Origin: an uncultured Eubacterium sp.
Lineage (GTDB): Bacteria; Bacillota; Clostridia; Oscillospirales; Acutalibacteraceae
Assembly (NCBI RefSeq): GCF_945980375.1
Contig: NZ_CAMFQO010000003.1
Span: 1-64,000 of the forward strand
Length of the DNA stretch: 64,000 bases
Direction of reading: 5' to 3'
Below the pieces are notes generated by a model that worked only from the letters and a program-made list of their open reading frames with translations, searched no databases and was not told the DNA's origin. Of the stretch, positions 10,886 to 35,739 are shown piece after piece; positions within the stretch are counted from its first letter, which is position 1; each line of letters begins with the position of its first letter. A program made the translations under genes and the position numbers.

Positions 10886-11056
10886 GTGAAATCGTGCTAT
10901 CGCGCGGTGAAATCAAAGGCTTTCGCCTTTGATGATATATTTTGCTAACGCAAAATGTGAAATTAAATCCACCCACCGCCGCAGCGATTTCACTCGAGCG
11001 AAGCGAGAATTTCACATTGCGAAGCAATATTTCACCCACCCGTTAGGGTGGATTTA
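10886..11056. repeat. Short-hairpin array beside the tRNA-Cys terminator
   Basis: At least five mini-hairpins lie in a row: arms around 10912-10933 (AAAGGC/GCCTTT), 10939-10956 (ATTTTGC/GCAAAAT), 10993-11007 (CTCG/CGAG), 11016-11028 (ATTGC/GCAAT around GAA) and 11036-11051 (CCACCC/GGGTGG). They are separated by GTGAAAT or its complement ATTTCAC. An outer 11-bp pair (10964-10974 TAAATCCACCC with 11046-11056) encloses the last three. The array ends in ATTTAGTTGAAAA against the tRNA terminator, as at 1-57. No mobile-element gene is present. Confidence 0.65.
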
Positions 11057-11060
11057 GTTG

Positions 11061-31964: not shown

Positions 31965-32882
31965 TTATTCTCCTAATTCATTTAATTGAGCAACATATTT
32001 TTCGATTTTTTCAACTATCGCAGAAATTTTTTCATCATTTTCTACCGGTAAAAACGGAGATCTCGGGACACCGGCATCAATACCGAAACGTCTTGAAATT
32101 ACATTTTTAGCTGCACCGTAAAGTGACGGAAGACTGATTAAATCAAAAATAACATCATTGATTTTGTACTGAAGTTCTTTAGCTTTGTCAATTTTGTTTT
32201 GATTAATAAGCTCATCAAGCTTAACAAAAAGCTCGGGCATAGTTCCGTATGTTCCGCCTATACCTGCATTCGCTCCCATTAATCTTCCGCCGAGGTACTG
32301 TTCATCAGAGCCGTTAAATATGATAAAGTCGTCACCTGCGACTGTTCTGTATCTTTCCATATTATATACAGGTTCCTCGGAATTCTTAATGCCTATTACC
32401 TTTGGATTTTTGGCCATTCGTTCAAACAAATCAAGCGGAAGGTTAAATGATGTAAGCTGTGGGATATTGTAAATAATAAAAGGTAAATCGGTAGAATCAA
32501 TTATCCCGTTCCAATGCTTTTCTACGCTTGCGGGAGAAAGATGATAGTATACCGACGGAACTGCAGAAACAGCGTCAACACCGATTTTTTCAGCATGCCT
32601 TGCAAGGCGTATGCTCTCCTTTGTTCCTGCGCATCCAACATGAACGATAACAGTGAAATCGCCATCTGCAGCATCCATTACCGCTTCGGCAACCTGCATC
32701 CTCTCCTCTGTCGAAAGAAGAAAGCCCTCGCCTGTTGATCCGCAAACATAAACACCCTTGACACCCTTGCTCTTGTATATTCTAACAAGCTTCTTGATGG
32801 CATCAACATTTATTTCGTCATTTTTGTCGTAAATAGTATTAAGTGCGACAAATATACCCTTAAATTTTTCTAAATCTCTCAT
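31965..32882 (-). CDS. nanA: N-acetylneuraminate lyase
   Basis: NanA cleaves sialic acid to ManNAc and pyruvate. It is a DHDPS-family TIM barrel of about 305 residues from the chosen ATG (32880-32882). That start has GGTG six bases upstream, and earlier in-frame ATGs lack spacing. Key motifs are GSTGEGFLLS (carboxylate binding), the tyrosine in IIYNIPQLTSF, and the Schiff-base lysine in VIGIKNSEE. The divergent nanE-nanK partners make a sialic acid role much more likely than dihydrodipicolinate synthase. Confidence 0.93.
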   Translation of the reverse strand: MRDLEKFKGIFVALNTIYDKNDEINVDAIKKLVRIYKSKGVKGVYVCGSTGEGFLLSTEERMQVAEAVMDAADGDFTVIVHVGCAGTKESIRLARHAEKIGVDAVSAVPSVYYHLSPASVEKHWNGIIDSTDLPFIIYNIPQLTSFNLPLDLFERMAKNPKVIGIKNSEEPVYNMERYRTVAGDDFIIFNGSDEQYLGGRLMGANAGIGGTYGTMPELFVKLDELINQNKIDKAKELQYKINDVIFDLISLPSLYGAAKNVISRRFGIDAGVPRSPFLPVENDEKISAIVEKIEKYVAQLNELGE

Positions 32883-32898
32883 TTTCATCACCAAAAAA

Positions 32899-32970
32899 AT
32901 AATATCACATAAATTATACATTTTCAATATTAATGTTGAAAATATGTAAATCACTTGCTATAATTAATTT
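32899..32970. promoter_or_regulatory. Overlapping divergent promoters and palindromic operator of the nan genes
   Basis: Rightward TTGAAA (32936-32941) and TATAAT (32959-32964) are 17 bp apart. Leftward TTGAAA (32922-32927) and TATTAT (32899-32904) are also 17 bp apart. Both -35 boxes are arms of a 22-bp near-perfect palindrome (32921-32942; TTTTCAA, ATTAAT centre, TTGAAAA). One repressor dimer there would shut both promoters. The regulator itself is not in the window. Confidence 0.75.
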
Positions 32971-33663
32971 ATGGAAAAGAATACTAAAATTTTAGAACAA
33001 ATTAAAGGCGGATTAATTGTCTCATGTCAGGCATTGCCGCATGAGCCCCTTTATGACTCTTACATTATGTCCAAAATGGCATATGCAGCTATGCTCGGCG
33101 GTGCCGTTGGCATCAGAGCAAATACAATAGTTGATATTTTGGCAATAAGAAAAAGAGTTGATTTACCGATAATCGGTATTATTAAGCAGGAATATAACGG
33201 CAGTGATGTGTATATCACTCCGACAATGGATGAAGTGGATGCTCTTGTTGAAATAGGTTGTGACATTATAGCAACCGATGCAACAAATCGTATTAGACCA
33301 AACGGAAAAACCTTTGAGGATTTTTTCAGCGAGGTCAGAGCAAAATATCCAAATCAACTATTTATGGCTGACACCTCGTGCTTTGAGGAGGGACAGCTTG
33401 CTGAAAGGCTTGGTTTTGACCTGATCGGTACAACTATGGCAGGTTATACCCCATACACAAAGGGTAGATCTTTACCTGATTTGGAGCTTATTGAAAAGTA
33501 TTCAAAGGAGCTTAACGTACCTATTATTGCCGAGGGTGGAATATGGTCACCCGAAGACTTAAAGAACGTATACAAGGCGGGTGCATTCAGTGCTGTTTGC
33601 GGAACAGCTATAACAAGACCTATGGATATTACAAAGCGTTTTGTCAAGGCATTAGATGAATAA
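32971..33663 (+). CDS. nanE: N-acylglucosamine-6-phosphate 2-epimerase
   Basis: NanE converts ManNAc-6-P to GlcNAc-6-P. The 230-residue TIM barrel shows the family features LIVSCQALPHEPLYDS, PIIGIIKQEY (catalytic lysine), DIIATDATNR and the phosphate-binding PIIAEGGIWSPED. The ATG lies only six bases after the TATAAT box, with no ribosome-binding site between, so the message is predicted to start at or next to the start codon. It is followed 27 bp later by nanK. Confidence 0.94.
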   Translation: MEKNTKILEQIKGGLIVSCQALPHEPLYDSYIMSKMAYAAMLGGAVGIRANTIVDILAIRKRVDLPIIGIIKQEYNGSDVYITPTMDEVDALVEIGCDIIATDATNRIRPNGKTFEDFFSEVRAKYPNQLFMADTSCFEEGQLAERLGFDLIGTTMAGYTPYTKGRSLPDLELIEKYSKELNVPIIAEGGIWSPEDLKNVYKAGAFSAVCGTAITRPMDITKRFVKALDE

Positions 33664-33690
33664 TTATAATACCAAAGGATGTGTTATGAT

Positions 33691-34572
33691 ATGAGAATAT
33701 TAGCATTTGATATAGGCGGTACTTTTATTAAGTATGCTTTATGTAATGATAATTTTGAATTAACCGAAAAGAATAAAATTCCAACCAATGCCAAGCAAGG
33801 CGGTCAGGTAATTATTCAGCGAATTATTGATATTATCGAAAGCTATGAAAATATCGATAGAGTTGCTATTTCCACCGCAGGTCAGGTTGACAGCGAGCAC
33901 GGTGTTGTTGTTTATTCAACCGATAACATTCCATACTACACAGGAATGATGGTAAAAAGCCTTATTGAAAACAAAACAGGTATTCCCACCTTTGTTGAAA
34001 ATGATGTTAATGCCGCTGCTTTAGGTGAGGCTCACTTTGGTGCAGCCAAGGGCGAAAATGATTTTATATGCTTAACACTCGGAACCGGTGTCGGTGGTGC
34101 TATTTTCCTAAATAATAAGCTATATAAGGGCTCTGCATCTGCGGCAGGTGAAATCGGTCATATGGTTATTCATGCGGGAGGCAGACAGTGTACTTGTGGC
34201 GGTGAAGGATGCTTTGAATGTTATGCTTCGGCTAATGCGTTAATTAAGGCAGTTAATAAGATTTCAGATGAGCCGCTTGACGCCTTTCAGATATTCCAAA
34301 AGGAAAATATGCAAAGACCTGAAATAAGATCGGAAATTGACAAATGGATTGACGAAATTATTATCGGTCTTATGAATTTGATTTATATTTTCAATCCCCC
34401 GCTTATTGTCATCGGCGGCGGTATTATGAATGAAGATTACATCATTGAACTTATTGACAGAAAGATTTACAGCAGACTTATGAAAAGCTTTAAGAATGTT
34501 AGAATTGAAAGAAGTCAAAAAGGTAATGATTCTGCGCTGTTGGGCGTTGCTTACGAGGCTTCAAAGCTTTAA
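33691..34572 (+). CDS. nanK: ROK-family sugar kinase, probable N-acetylmannosamine kinase
   Basis: This is a ROK kinase of about 293 residues from the ATG at 33691; the earlier ATG at 33679 gives an unlikely N-terminus. It shows the ATP loop DIGGTFIKYAL, the sugar-binding ENDVNAAALGE and GEIGHM, and the zinc motif CTCGGEGCFECYAS. ROK sequences alone do not fix the sugar. The position after nanE and opposite nanA points to ManNAc, although glucose or GlcNAc remain possible. Confidence 0.85.
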   Translation: MRILAFDIGGTFIKYALCNDNFELTEKNKIPTNAKQGGQVIIQRIIDIIESYENIDRVAISTAGQVDSEHGVVVYSTDNIPYYTGMMVKSLIENKTGIPTFVENDVNAAALGEAHFGAAKGENDFICLTLGTGVGGAIFLNNKLYKGSASAAGEIGHMVIHAGGRQCTCGGEGCFECYASANALIKAVNKISDEPLDAFQIFQKENMQRPEIRSEIDKWIDEIIIGLMNLIYIFNPPLIVIGGGIMNEDYIIELIDRKIYSRLMKSFKNVRIERSQKGNDSALLGVAYEASKL

Positions 34573-34585
34573 TAAACAAAAAATT

Positions 34586-34608
34586 GCTCCCGACTAATCA
34601 TCGGGAGC
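34586..34608. terminator. Terminator of the structured RNA, possibly shared with nanK
   Basis: GCTCCCGA (34586-34593) is inverted as TCGGGAGC (34601-34608). The minus strand continues AATTTTTTG, a good U-run; the plus strand tail is poor. It mainly serves the minus-strand RNA. Confidence 0.85.
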
Positions 34609-34612
34609 ATAA

Positions 34613-34741
34613 CTATATTTACTTGTACATTGGACTATACCTCAAAAATTAATTTTTGAAAAATACTACTTAGCCCATTGGAATTTACCTCTTTATACTA
34701 ATAATCAAAATCAAACTATTTAGTACATCGGAGTTTACCTC
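34613..34741 (-). repeat. Three ~50-nt tandem units in the tail of the RNA
   Basis: The units begin at 34741, 34691 and 34643 on the minus strand. They read GAGGTAAACTCCGATGTACT, GAGGTAAATTCCAATGGGCT and GAGGTATAGTCCAATGTACA. Each has GAGG about nine bases before an ATG that meets a stop after two or three codons. The period is 50 then 48 bases, and the DNA between units is not conserved. Confidence 0.75.
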
Positions 34742-34940
34742 TTTCAAAATTATAGGTTGAATTTTAAGAGCCATCTACTCTGATTATCTGCAGGAAAATA
34801 ATCTTATATATCCTTATTATTAAGTTTTTACGACACCTATAAGTATTTATCCAACCCTGCAATAACTATTTAATTCATCTGATAAGATACCGGTCGGTGA
34901 TTAATTCCGTTTTAATACTCTCAACCGTTAGTTCCGTTAT

Positions 34941-34988
34941 TTATTGGAATACTGTATAGGTGGCTGAATTATCAATCTGAAGTTTCAT
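34941..34988 (-). CDS. Possible 15-residue peptide in the RNA leader
   Basis: The ORF encodes MKLQIDNSATYTVFQ and has AAAGGAGG exactly eight bases upstream of ATG, as good a ribosome site as any in the window. However, the same bases form the GGCTGAA/TTCAGCC and CTGAAG/CTTCAG stems, so the frame may be accidental. It could be a leader peptide or only RNA structure. Confidence 0.3.
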   Translation of the reverse strand: MKLQIDNSATYTVFQ

Positions 34989-35033
34989 ATCTTCAGCCTC
35001 CTTTCCTTCGAACCCTCTCTTAAGTTCAACTAA

Positions 35034-35062
35034 ATAGTAGCATACTTTTTAGTAAAAGTCAA
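35034..35062 (-). promoter_or_regulatory. Promoter of the structured RNA
   Basis: On the minus strand TTGACT (35057-35062) and TACTAT (35034-35039) are spaced 17 bp; the predicted start is near 35027. Confidence 0.8.
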
Positions 35063-35120
35063 TAGTTTTTTTCAACATTTTTCAAAAAATATATAAAATG
35101 TTACAAAAGAAAGAAGCCTA

Positions 35121-35150
35121 TTGACTAATTTATATATTATATATTATAAT
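35121..35150 (+). promoter_or_regulatory. Promoter of the DUF1292 gene
   Basis: TTGACT (35121-35126) and TATAAT (35145-35150) are spaced 18 bp, 20 bp upstream of the ATG at 35171. It diverges from the RNA promoter at 35034-35062. Confidence 0.75.
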
Positions 35151-35170
35151 GACAAAAAGGAGTGATAAAT

Positions 35171-35488
35171 ATGGATAACGAAGAAATTTACGAGCCTGAT
35201 CTCCTCTCTGTTACCGATGAGGACGGAAACGAGATTGTTTTTGAATTGCTTGAAAGATACGAAACAGATGACGATGTTTATGTTGCAATAACCGAGTATC
35301 ACGATGTTGCACAGGATATCGTTGAGGCTGATTATGAGGTAATTATCCTTAAGGTTGTTGAGGATGAAAACGGTGATGAGTATCTTGAAGAAATTCAGGA
35401 TGAAATGGAATACGAGCAGATTTCCGACATCTTAATGGCTAAGGTTGAGGAAAAATATGATGTAGAGTATTTTGAACCTGAACAGTAA
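35171..35488 (+). CDS. DUF1292 family protein
   Basis: This is a very acidic 105-residue cytosolic protein of the DUF1292 family, whose function is unknown. The typical pattern is LLSVTDEDGNEIVFELLE, then YVAITEY and ILKVVEDENGDEYLEEI. In many Firmicutes such a protein is found with the ireB-yrrK-mutS2 or alaS area, which is not present here. ATG 35171 is preferred over GTG 35162, because AAGGAG lies eight bases upstream. It is directly followed by the 6S RNA gene. Confidence 0.88.
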   Translation: MDNEEIYEPDLLSVTDEDGNEIVFELLERYETDDDVYVAITEYHDVAQDIVEADYEVIILKVVEDENGDEYLEEIQDEMEYEQISDILMAKVEEKYDVEYFEPEQ

Positions 35489-35518
35489 TAATTTTTATAA
35501 CTATTCATAAAATAATAA

Positions 35519-35703
35519 TGTCTGCGCATCTCGACAACCTATCGCCAAATAACCCGAACAAACAATTTTTAATGGGAACTAAGCTCCGATTTATGTGATG
35601 CAGACCTCCCTACTTTGTAGGACGCTGGGAGCACTGATTACATCGGGCAGTAACCCACCTGCTTTAACCGCAGGTTATATTCGGCATAGGCGGATGCGTG
35701 GAT
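35519..35703 (+). ncRNA. ssrS: 6S RNA
   Basis: 6S RNA binds sigma-A RNA polymerase by mimicking an open promoter. The sequence folds as the canonical rod. The closing stems are CGCATC (35525-35530) with GGATGCG (35692-35698) and CCTATCGCC (35538-35546) with GGCATAGG (35683-35690). A large central bubble carries a 3'-side hairpin CCTGC/GCAGG (35658-35674). Inner helices are GCTCCG/CGGGC and ATGTGAT/ATTACAT, with an apical CTCCC/GGGAG stem. Ends are estimated to within a few bases. It ends in a strong terminator. Confidence 0.88.
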
Positions 35704-35739
35704 AAAAAAACGGCGGCACGTAGCCGCCGTTTATTTTTT
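35703..35739. terminator. Bidirectional terminator between 6S RNA and the epimerase gene
   Basis: ACGGCGGC and GCCGCCGT arms (35709-35731) surround ACGTA. There are seven A residues on one side and a T-run on the other, so it ends both the 6S RNA and the convergent epimerase gene. Confidence 0.9.

Follow-up and report, generated by a model that had tools for sequence, protein, structure and literature searches.

What occupies a segment that a promoter and a terminator enclose and no long gene fills? The question is raised by positions 34575 to 35027 of the window (the whole stretch of DNA analysed, 64,000 nucleotides from an uncultured Eubacterium sp.), which a sequence-only reading had interpreted as a structured RNA with switch-like helices that no gene explains. 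Sequence comparison confirms the segment as an independent structured RNA, promoter to terminator: the promoter, the 10-pair terminator, the folding energy and homologues with covariation all bear this out. The absence of a gene holds for long genes, but not for short ones, because the RNA contains a conserved open reading frame (ORF) of 15 codons and three ORFs of two or three codons. This conserved short ORF and the tandem array of minigenes, both of which had gone unmentioned, are the most distinctive features of the RNA. A standalone 'noncoding' RNA can hide ORFs of 2-15 codons, which gene finders drop for their shortness. The chances are about even that the RNA is a standalone, structured and translated molecule of a family not yet described, which would work by engaging ribosomes.

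Transcription unit and folded core

The RNA lies on the minus strand, as do all of the features of it given below, and spans approximately 443 nt (34585..35027) from promoter to terminator. Its promoter (35034..35062), TTGACT-17-TACTAT with TG ahead of the -10 box, was read from the sequence and found by scan (-35 TTGACT at 35062-35057, a 17-nt spacer, -10 TACTAT at 35039-35034), and the intrinsic terminator of 10 pairs was found by scan at 34585..34609. The promoter pattern recurs in homologues: a sigma-A-type promoter lies within 330 nt in 59 of 62 and within 700 nt in the remaining three, and a terminator is present in 59 of the 62. Conservation of a putative sigma-A-type promoter speaks for housekeeping rather than sporulation-sigma transcription. 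The homologues range from 437 to 728 nt, as judged from the 56 of 62 in which both ends were located. The minimum free energy of the window RNA is -100.7 kcal/mol, versus -84.8 +/- 5.8 kcal/mol for shuffled sequences (z = -2.76), none of 100 of which folded as low.

A structured core at 34766..34965 (models R1 and R2) is defined by covariation across homologues. In an alignment of 62 sequences that was fitted to the covariance model, standard pairing is seen in 92.7% of the pair cells, and changes on both sides in 28 of the 29 core pairs, which upholds the covariation in relatives to which the structural claim had been tied, with the qualification that the 62 homologues share ancestry, so that these pair counts, and the codon counts below, are not counts of independent events. 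Doubly changed cells in the core number 361, versus 105 in shuffles and 34-78 when the partners are slid. The first alignment, made with MAFFT and not fitted to a model, gave 92.5% of cells paired and 22 of 34 pairs doubly changed, the core pairs having been picked while viewing the same alignment; none of 500 shuffles was as good, and none matched the core on any of five measures. The weakest core helix (90-93 with 98-101) has 69% of its cells paired in the MAFFT alignment.

The 8-bp helix proposed earlier, CACCTATA/TATAGGTG, is the long-range helix P1 (34834..34962), in which 34962-34955 pairs with 34841-34834; it is present, and conserved with compensatory changes, and its 5' strand falls within the leader ORF sORF1. 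The pseudoknot that had been suggested by a loop match was also substantiated. It joins GCAGG (34860-34856) to CCTGC (34794-34790) across 34790..34860, with 98.8% of cells paired and double changes in two of the five pairs tested (MAFFT alignment), the full loop match in the window being TGCAGG/CCTGCA (34861-34856 with 34794-34789). A further helix, P0 (34962..34998), pairs GGCTGAA (34998-34992) with TTCAGCC (34968-34962) and encloses the start codon of sORF1; in a partner-swap test, its run was 6.5 pairs with its own partner versus 5.0 with swapped partners, the maximum of 300 swaps being 5.34.

The switch by mutually exclusive helices that had been read into this RNA did not survive comparison with its homologues. 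The competing site ACCTATAA (34757-34750) is present in the letters of the window, but is not conserved and is no better than chance: of the 62 arrays, only that of the window RNA has an exact match of at least 6 nt to the complement of the P1 3' strand, and the longest match averages 3.76 nt in the arrays versus 3.72 nt in shuffles. The competitor pairing ACCTATAA/TATAGGTG was therefore rejected as not conserved (1/62). GAGGUAUAGUCC was considered for its likeness to an element of group I introns, and dropped because no intron model matched.

A leader ORF and an array of minigenes

The leader ORF, sORF1 (34941..34988), has 15 codons, a predicted product MKLQIDNSATYTVFQ and a TAA stop. Its Shine-Dalgarno (SD) sequence at 34997..35002 is AGGAGG in 59 and AGGGGG in three of the 62 homologues, and sORF1 pairs with an assumed 16S tail sequence at -14.7 kcal/mol. 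An AUG-started sORF1 of 10-17 codons is present in all 62 RNAs (exactly 15 codons in 37 of them, 16 in 14) and ends with TAA in 46, TAG in 14 and TGA in two. Its stop sits 13-28 nt inside the core in all 62, and at 22 nt in 51. Because the last codons of sORF1 overlap the 5' strand of P1, a ribosome finishing sORF1 must open P1, and translation and the folded core should be mutually exclusive.

Single changes between close pairs of sequences show an in-frame synonymous excess in the first eight codons of sORF1, which precede the core: 286 of 733 changes are synonymous versus 196 expected, compared with 161 of 989 (205 expected) and 211 of 848 (215 expected) in the shifted frames, these counts and those for the whole ORF giving a direction and not a probability because the pairs share ancestry. 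Third-position differences in the same eight codons amount to 0.239, versus 0.131 and 0.138 in the shifted frames. Over the whole 15-codon sORF1, core overlap included, the excess is small (484 of 1545, 427 expected; shifted frames 480 of 1886, 452 expected, and 416 of 1687, 411 expected). The product contains an EP motif in 42 of the 62 RNAs.

From the core to the terminator runs an array of elements, each counted by the rule of an SD, CC directly ahead of the start, and AUG or UUG as the start codon; the rule overlooks some sites through spacing (e.g. in L064, L093 and L095). The window RNA has three such elements: minigene 1 (34720..34741), with GAGGT at 34741-34737 and ATG TAC TAA at 34728-34720 (Met-Tyr); minigene 2 (34670..34691), with GAGGT at 34691-34687 and ATG GGC TAA at 34678-34670 (Met-Gly); and minigene 3 (34619..34643), with GAGGT at 34643-34639 and ATG TAC AAG TAA at 34630-34619 (Met-Tyr-Lys). 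Over the 62 RNAs, 161 elements were counted, one to four per RNA, 154 of which start with AUG and seven with UUG. Their ORFs have two codons in 99 cases, three in 30, four to seven in 11, ten in 17, twelve in three and fifteen in one, so that 129 of the 161 are minigenes in the sense of a strong SD, an ORF of two or three codons and a stop.

The stops of these ORFs vary in identity and keep close to the start. At codon 3, TAA is found in 70, TAG in 20 and TGA in nine. Of the ORFs with fewer than 10 codons, 41 lack a stop at codon 3 and 99 have one; codon 4 is a stop in 30 of the former and in four of the latter. The first of these proportions becomes 30 of 62 once the 21 longer ORFs are added. 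On the tree, the Met-Gly element (25 RNAs) has changed the identity of its stop at least 8 times, and the last element has changed the position of its stop at least 15 times. The second codon of the two-codon ORFs varies (Tyr, Gly, His, Phe, Asp, Arg and others) with the stop position kept. A first stop after at most two sense codons occurs in 129 of 161 elements in frame 0, 61 in frame +1 and 22 in frame +2; that early stops are also numerous in frame +1 counts against the engagement of ribosomes.

The array is set apart from its surroundings by density. The same rule yields 161 sites in 12.6 kb inside the RNA (129 with an ORF of at most three codons) and 393 sites in 823 kb outside it, both strands counted (46 with an ORF of at most three codons). 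Clusters of at least two AUG elements with ORFs of at most four codons within 260 nt are found in 49 of the 62 RNAs versus none in the 823 kb of flanking strands. With the same assumed 16S tail, the elements pair at a mean of -10.9 kcal/mol, and sites at or below -9.5 kcal/mol number 2.25 per array versus 0.37 in shuffles (59 arrays). Prediction gives the elements no greater openness than the remainder of the array (mean unpaired fraction 0.41 versus 0.49; higher in 8 of 56), and this predicted pairing counts against an open array and against ribosome engagement. One element of L106, which by reading lacks an AUG, also counts against ribosome engagement. In 17 RNAs (e.g. L115, L120 and L217), a middle element has an ORF of exactly 10 codons, 16 of them with Phe at position 5, and often of one pattern (MLRKFIRLIK, MLRSFIVSKK, MRRNFNILIK); the window RNA has no such element. 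The product of these ORFs is a possible small basic peptide.

Distribution within and beyond the genus

The RNA has a divergent, syntenic neighbour, a gene for a DUF1292 protein on the plus strand (35162..35488; Pfam PF06949, 53.1 bits), which is not claimed as part of the mechanism. The divergence noticed in the window recurs at 59 of 62 loci, a contig end truncating the remaining three. By BLAST, the RNA was found in 19 of 60 genomes including that of the window, all of one genus. The first covariance model, built from 17 of the BLAST-found sequences, matched one copy each in 60 of 80 genomes of the genus, among them 44 of the 51 of good quality; one more was recognized by eye, which brings the latter to 45 of 51. 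Fifteen of the 20 genomes without a model match also lack a match to the DUF1292 gene and are mostly incomplete drafts, and three of these 15 are of good quality, so that loss of the locus is possible there. The remainder are three cut at a contig end, one with a weak, distant DUF1292 match, and G441, which plainly has the RNA and was missed by the models. In none of the 80 genomes was an intact DUF1292 locus found without the RNA.

In an even sample of the order, the RNA was found in 4 of 394 genomes, all from the window's genus, and in a sample of the family in 6 of 250 genomes, two of them of other genera. The second model, R2, made from 62 sequences, matched 30 of 398 family genomes at E <= 1. 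Nine of these matches are strong (seven genomes of the genus, plus G498 and G530 of the same two other genera); the other 21, with E of 0.004 or worse and no DUF1292 gene at the fetched loci, were left uncounted. No array was found at 20 order-level loci, one per other family, two of which (L193 and L207) are shortened by contig ends. The last element with the terminator behind it was also found on sixteen named public contigs, under the labels Eubacterium sp., Ruminococcaceae, Oscillospiraceae, Clostridia, Clostridiales or Clostridium sp. CAG:678; goat rumen or sheep ileum is mentioned in some of the titles. A phage or plasmid origin of the RNA was considered and rejected, no match having been found. 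Viral pattern scans gave one hit, none, and 35 stretches with one match each, which are attributed to chance because the single hit lacks a core match and no element cluster is present in any of the 35 stretches.

Related units occur in other genera. A DUF1292 match was found in 53 of 60 family genomes, and 30 loci were examined; three of these (the window's own genome, G025 and G498) are known carriers of the RNA, and the other 27 were compared. Nine of the 27 have a divergent promoter, a terminator and short ORFs, mostly of 10-25 codons, with SD and CC ahead of the start; the other 18 comprise three with a promoter-like site only and 15 with none. Model R2 fails to match the nine units. An AUG or GUG ORF of at most five codons is found in four of the nine, and its absence from the other five, by the rule used, counts against ribosome engagement.

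A minigene pattern found 22 places in 20 of the 398 family genomes, from 13 genera, versus one for the reversed-pattern control; the seven genomes of the window's genus in this sample, in which the spacing is different, gave no match. At 13 of the 20 pattern loci (L220-L239, one per genome), promoter, minigene and terminator are all present; the other seven, each missing a part, may be due to chance. A leader ORF of 13-30 codons is found in 12 of the 13 complete loci, with an EP motif in five of the 12. DUF1292 adjoins seven of the 13, and the 1.5 kb to each side of the other six (L223, L226, L234 and L236-L238) yielded no match to it, so the predicted unit of promoter, minigene and terminator occurs at non-DUF1292 loci too. 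The RNAs of L223-L226 measure only 245-266 nt. Judged by sequence, the core of the related units in other genera is either different or very short. The short ORF and the minigenes stay there, so that the plan of ORFs extends over a wider range of genera than the fold does.

Some elements of L173, L179, L187, L223, L224 and L226 keep SD-UCC with AAG or AAA in place of AUG, and several of these retain the in-frame stop. Together with the element of L106 without AUG, they suggest that some sites may do without initiation; the SD-UCC part of the elements may matter by itself.

Class assignment and candidate functions

A search of 4227 Rfam families (E <= 10; 34560-35730) gave only weak matches over the RNA, each far under its gathering score; no known class covers it at full length, in keeping with the novelty that the sequence-only reading had claimed. 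The family models of OLE, ROOL, GOLLD and 6S have no match over the RNA. The raiA motif (ModT), which had been offered as a possibility, is not borne out: its model, RF03072, is unmatched over the RNA, with no gathering-score match in the window, none at E <= 10 in 34560-35730, and none in the window's own genome, where a copy may nevertheless lie elsewhere, since control genomes were equally blank in that search. Rfam scans of 20 and of 8 relatives likewise found nothing over the RNA, with 6S, T-box, tRNA and Gut-1 matches outside it. The RNA is by model not raiA, OLE, ROOL, GOLLD or 6S, and by context not a cis-acting leader.

Comparison with known systems sharpens the difference. The dual-function small RNAs RNAIII/hld, SgrS/SgrT and SR1 are also structured RNAs that hold a short ORF, but the present RNA has several ORFs of two or three codons and no Rfam match. 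Minigenes are known as artificial translation inhibitors or as leader elements; the lambda bar minigene, for example, has two codons. Bacterial minigenes have in common with the present elements a strong SD, an AUG, one sense codon and a stop, most frequently UAA. Those known to us are single or overlapping leader elements, whereas the present RNA carries one to four in tandem, conserved in its genus and present also in other genera, in a standalone, terminated transcript with a folded core. To our knowledge, conserved tandem minigenes have been described for no other RNA. The raiA motif resembles the RNA in being a standalone structured Bacillota RNA that presumably acts in trans, but differs in model and probably in neighbours, and in the present RNA ORFs are conserved; the synteny of modT varies (PMC11706538). 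OLE RNA (RF01071), a large structured Bacillota RNA linked to SD/anti-SD contact and the 30S platform, is a precedent for a structured RNA that touches the SD machinery; OLE bears an SD/anti-SD mimic by which it binds ribosomal protein bS21 (PMC12054373), whereas the present RNA bears SDs and ORFs. A bacterial two-codon minigene, mg2 of axe-txe, is described in PMC8708949. In the open-access literature of PubMed Central, no report was found of a standalone RNA built of conserved tandem minigenes; we regard the architecture of the RNA as new.

Comparison shows that sORF1 and the array are conserved; that they are translated, that they park ribosomes and that the RNA has an effect in trans is inferred. 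Both sORF1 and the minigenes would be translated. Ribosome traffic on sORF1 and folding of the core would exclude each other, so that the RNA would report translation status, and the minigenes would load ribosomes, with slow termination or drop-off because the strong SD still touches the ribosome. The RNA may in this way park 30S or 70S particles, or slow translation when it is abundant. A fuller version of this proposal is tentative, and somewhat doubtful: that a family of RNAs in gut Clostridia captures ribosomes, its arrays of minimal ORFs with extended SDs parking or recycling 30S/70S as a programmed brake or ribosome store, and its leader ORF coupling ribosome supply to the folding of a variable core. 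If ribosomes are indeed engaged, the ribosome pool itself would be the target of a bacterial RNA device. According to PMC8708949, growth is inhibited most by minigenes of two codons that combine a strong SD with UAA, through release of peptidyl-tRNA, and such minigenes can protect mRNA in cis; the natural two-codon minigene reported there was not growth-inhibiting and acted in cis only, which counts against ribosome engagement. Extended SD pairing has been demonstrated in S. aureus (PMC13009471).

Protection of transcripts in cis by minigenes and SD occupancy (PMC8708949 and work cited there) would also suit an RNA whose folded core works in trans and whose minigenes only carry ribosomes that shield it from RNases. 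This is rather unlikely: the core is strongly conserved within the genus, as such a function would predict, but in other genera it has changed beyond the reach of the model, or the whole RNA has shrunk to the length seen at L223-L226, while the short ORF and minigenes are kept. It is improbable that the products themselves matter and that the locus is an operon for a peptide of approximately 15 residues, in some species a basic peptide of 10 residues, and formyl-dipeptides. The surplus of synonymous changes early in sORF1, the EP motif shared by its products and those of other-genus leader ORFs, and the recurrent Phe of the exactly 10-codon ORFs agree with a peptide function, whereas the second codon of the two-codon ORFs varies under a kept stop position, and a gene for peptides only would need no covarying core.

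The replacement of AUG by AAG or AAA at six loci, and the binding of bS21 by the SD/anti-SD mimic of OLE RNA (PMC12054373), are what would be expected if the repeats bound the 16S 3' end or a protein as untranslated motifs, in a noncoding RNA that docks on the 30S subunit. Such motifs leave unexplained that in-frame stops are kept through interchange of TAA, TAG and TGA and through the shift from codon 3 to codon 4, and this alternative appears quite improbable. A riboswitch or attenuator for the next gene is extremely improbable; the RNA does end with an intrinsic terminator, and valS follows it in some genomes, but three of the relatives scanned (L101, L115 and L120) have a separate T-box leader of its own between the RNA and valS. 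The earlier statement that no constant gene lies downstream in cis stands, since the downstream gene differs among relatives and is convergent in the window; a cis-acting leader was rejected on this ground.

On the far side of the terminator, window positions 31965-34572 appear to encode a ROK kinase, an epimerase and an aldolase of the dihydrodipicolinate/neuraminate lyase type, the kinase having been assigned by Pfam and the other two by eye; these genes are perhaps a sialic-acid set, and the same three clusters come after the RNA in three relatives. Downstream of the DUF1292 gene, a 6S RNA match at 35516-35708 on the plus strand scores 35.5 bits, below the Rfam cut-off of 46.4. It is probably a real, divergent 6S RNA because the corresponding stretches of relatives match above the cut-off (12 of 20 and 4 of 8 scanned), lying just downstream of DUF1292 at the other-genus loci. 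At window positions 10982-11060 on the minus strand there is a Gut-1 RNA (RF01706), which adjoins a tRNA cluster; at L234, the promoter of the minigene RNA is preceded by a tRNA and a Gut-1 RNA on the opposite strand.
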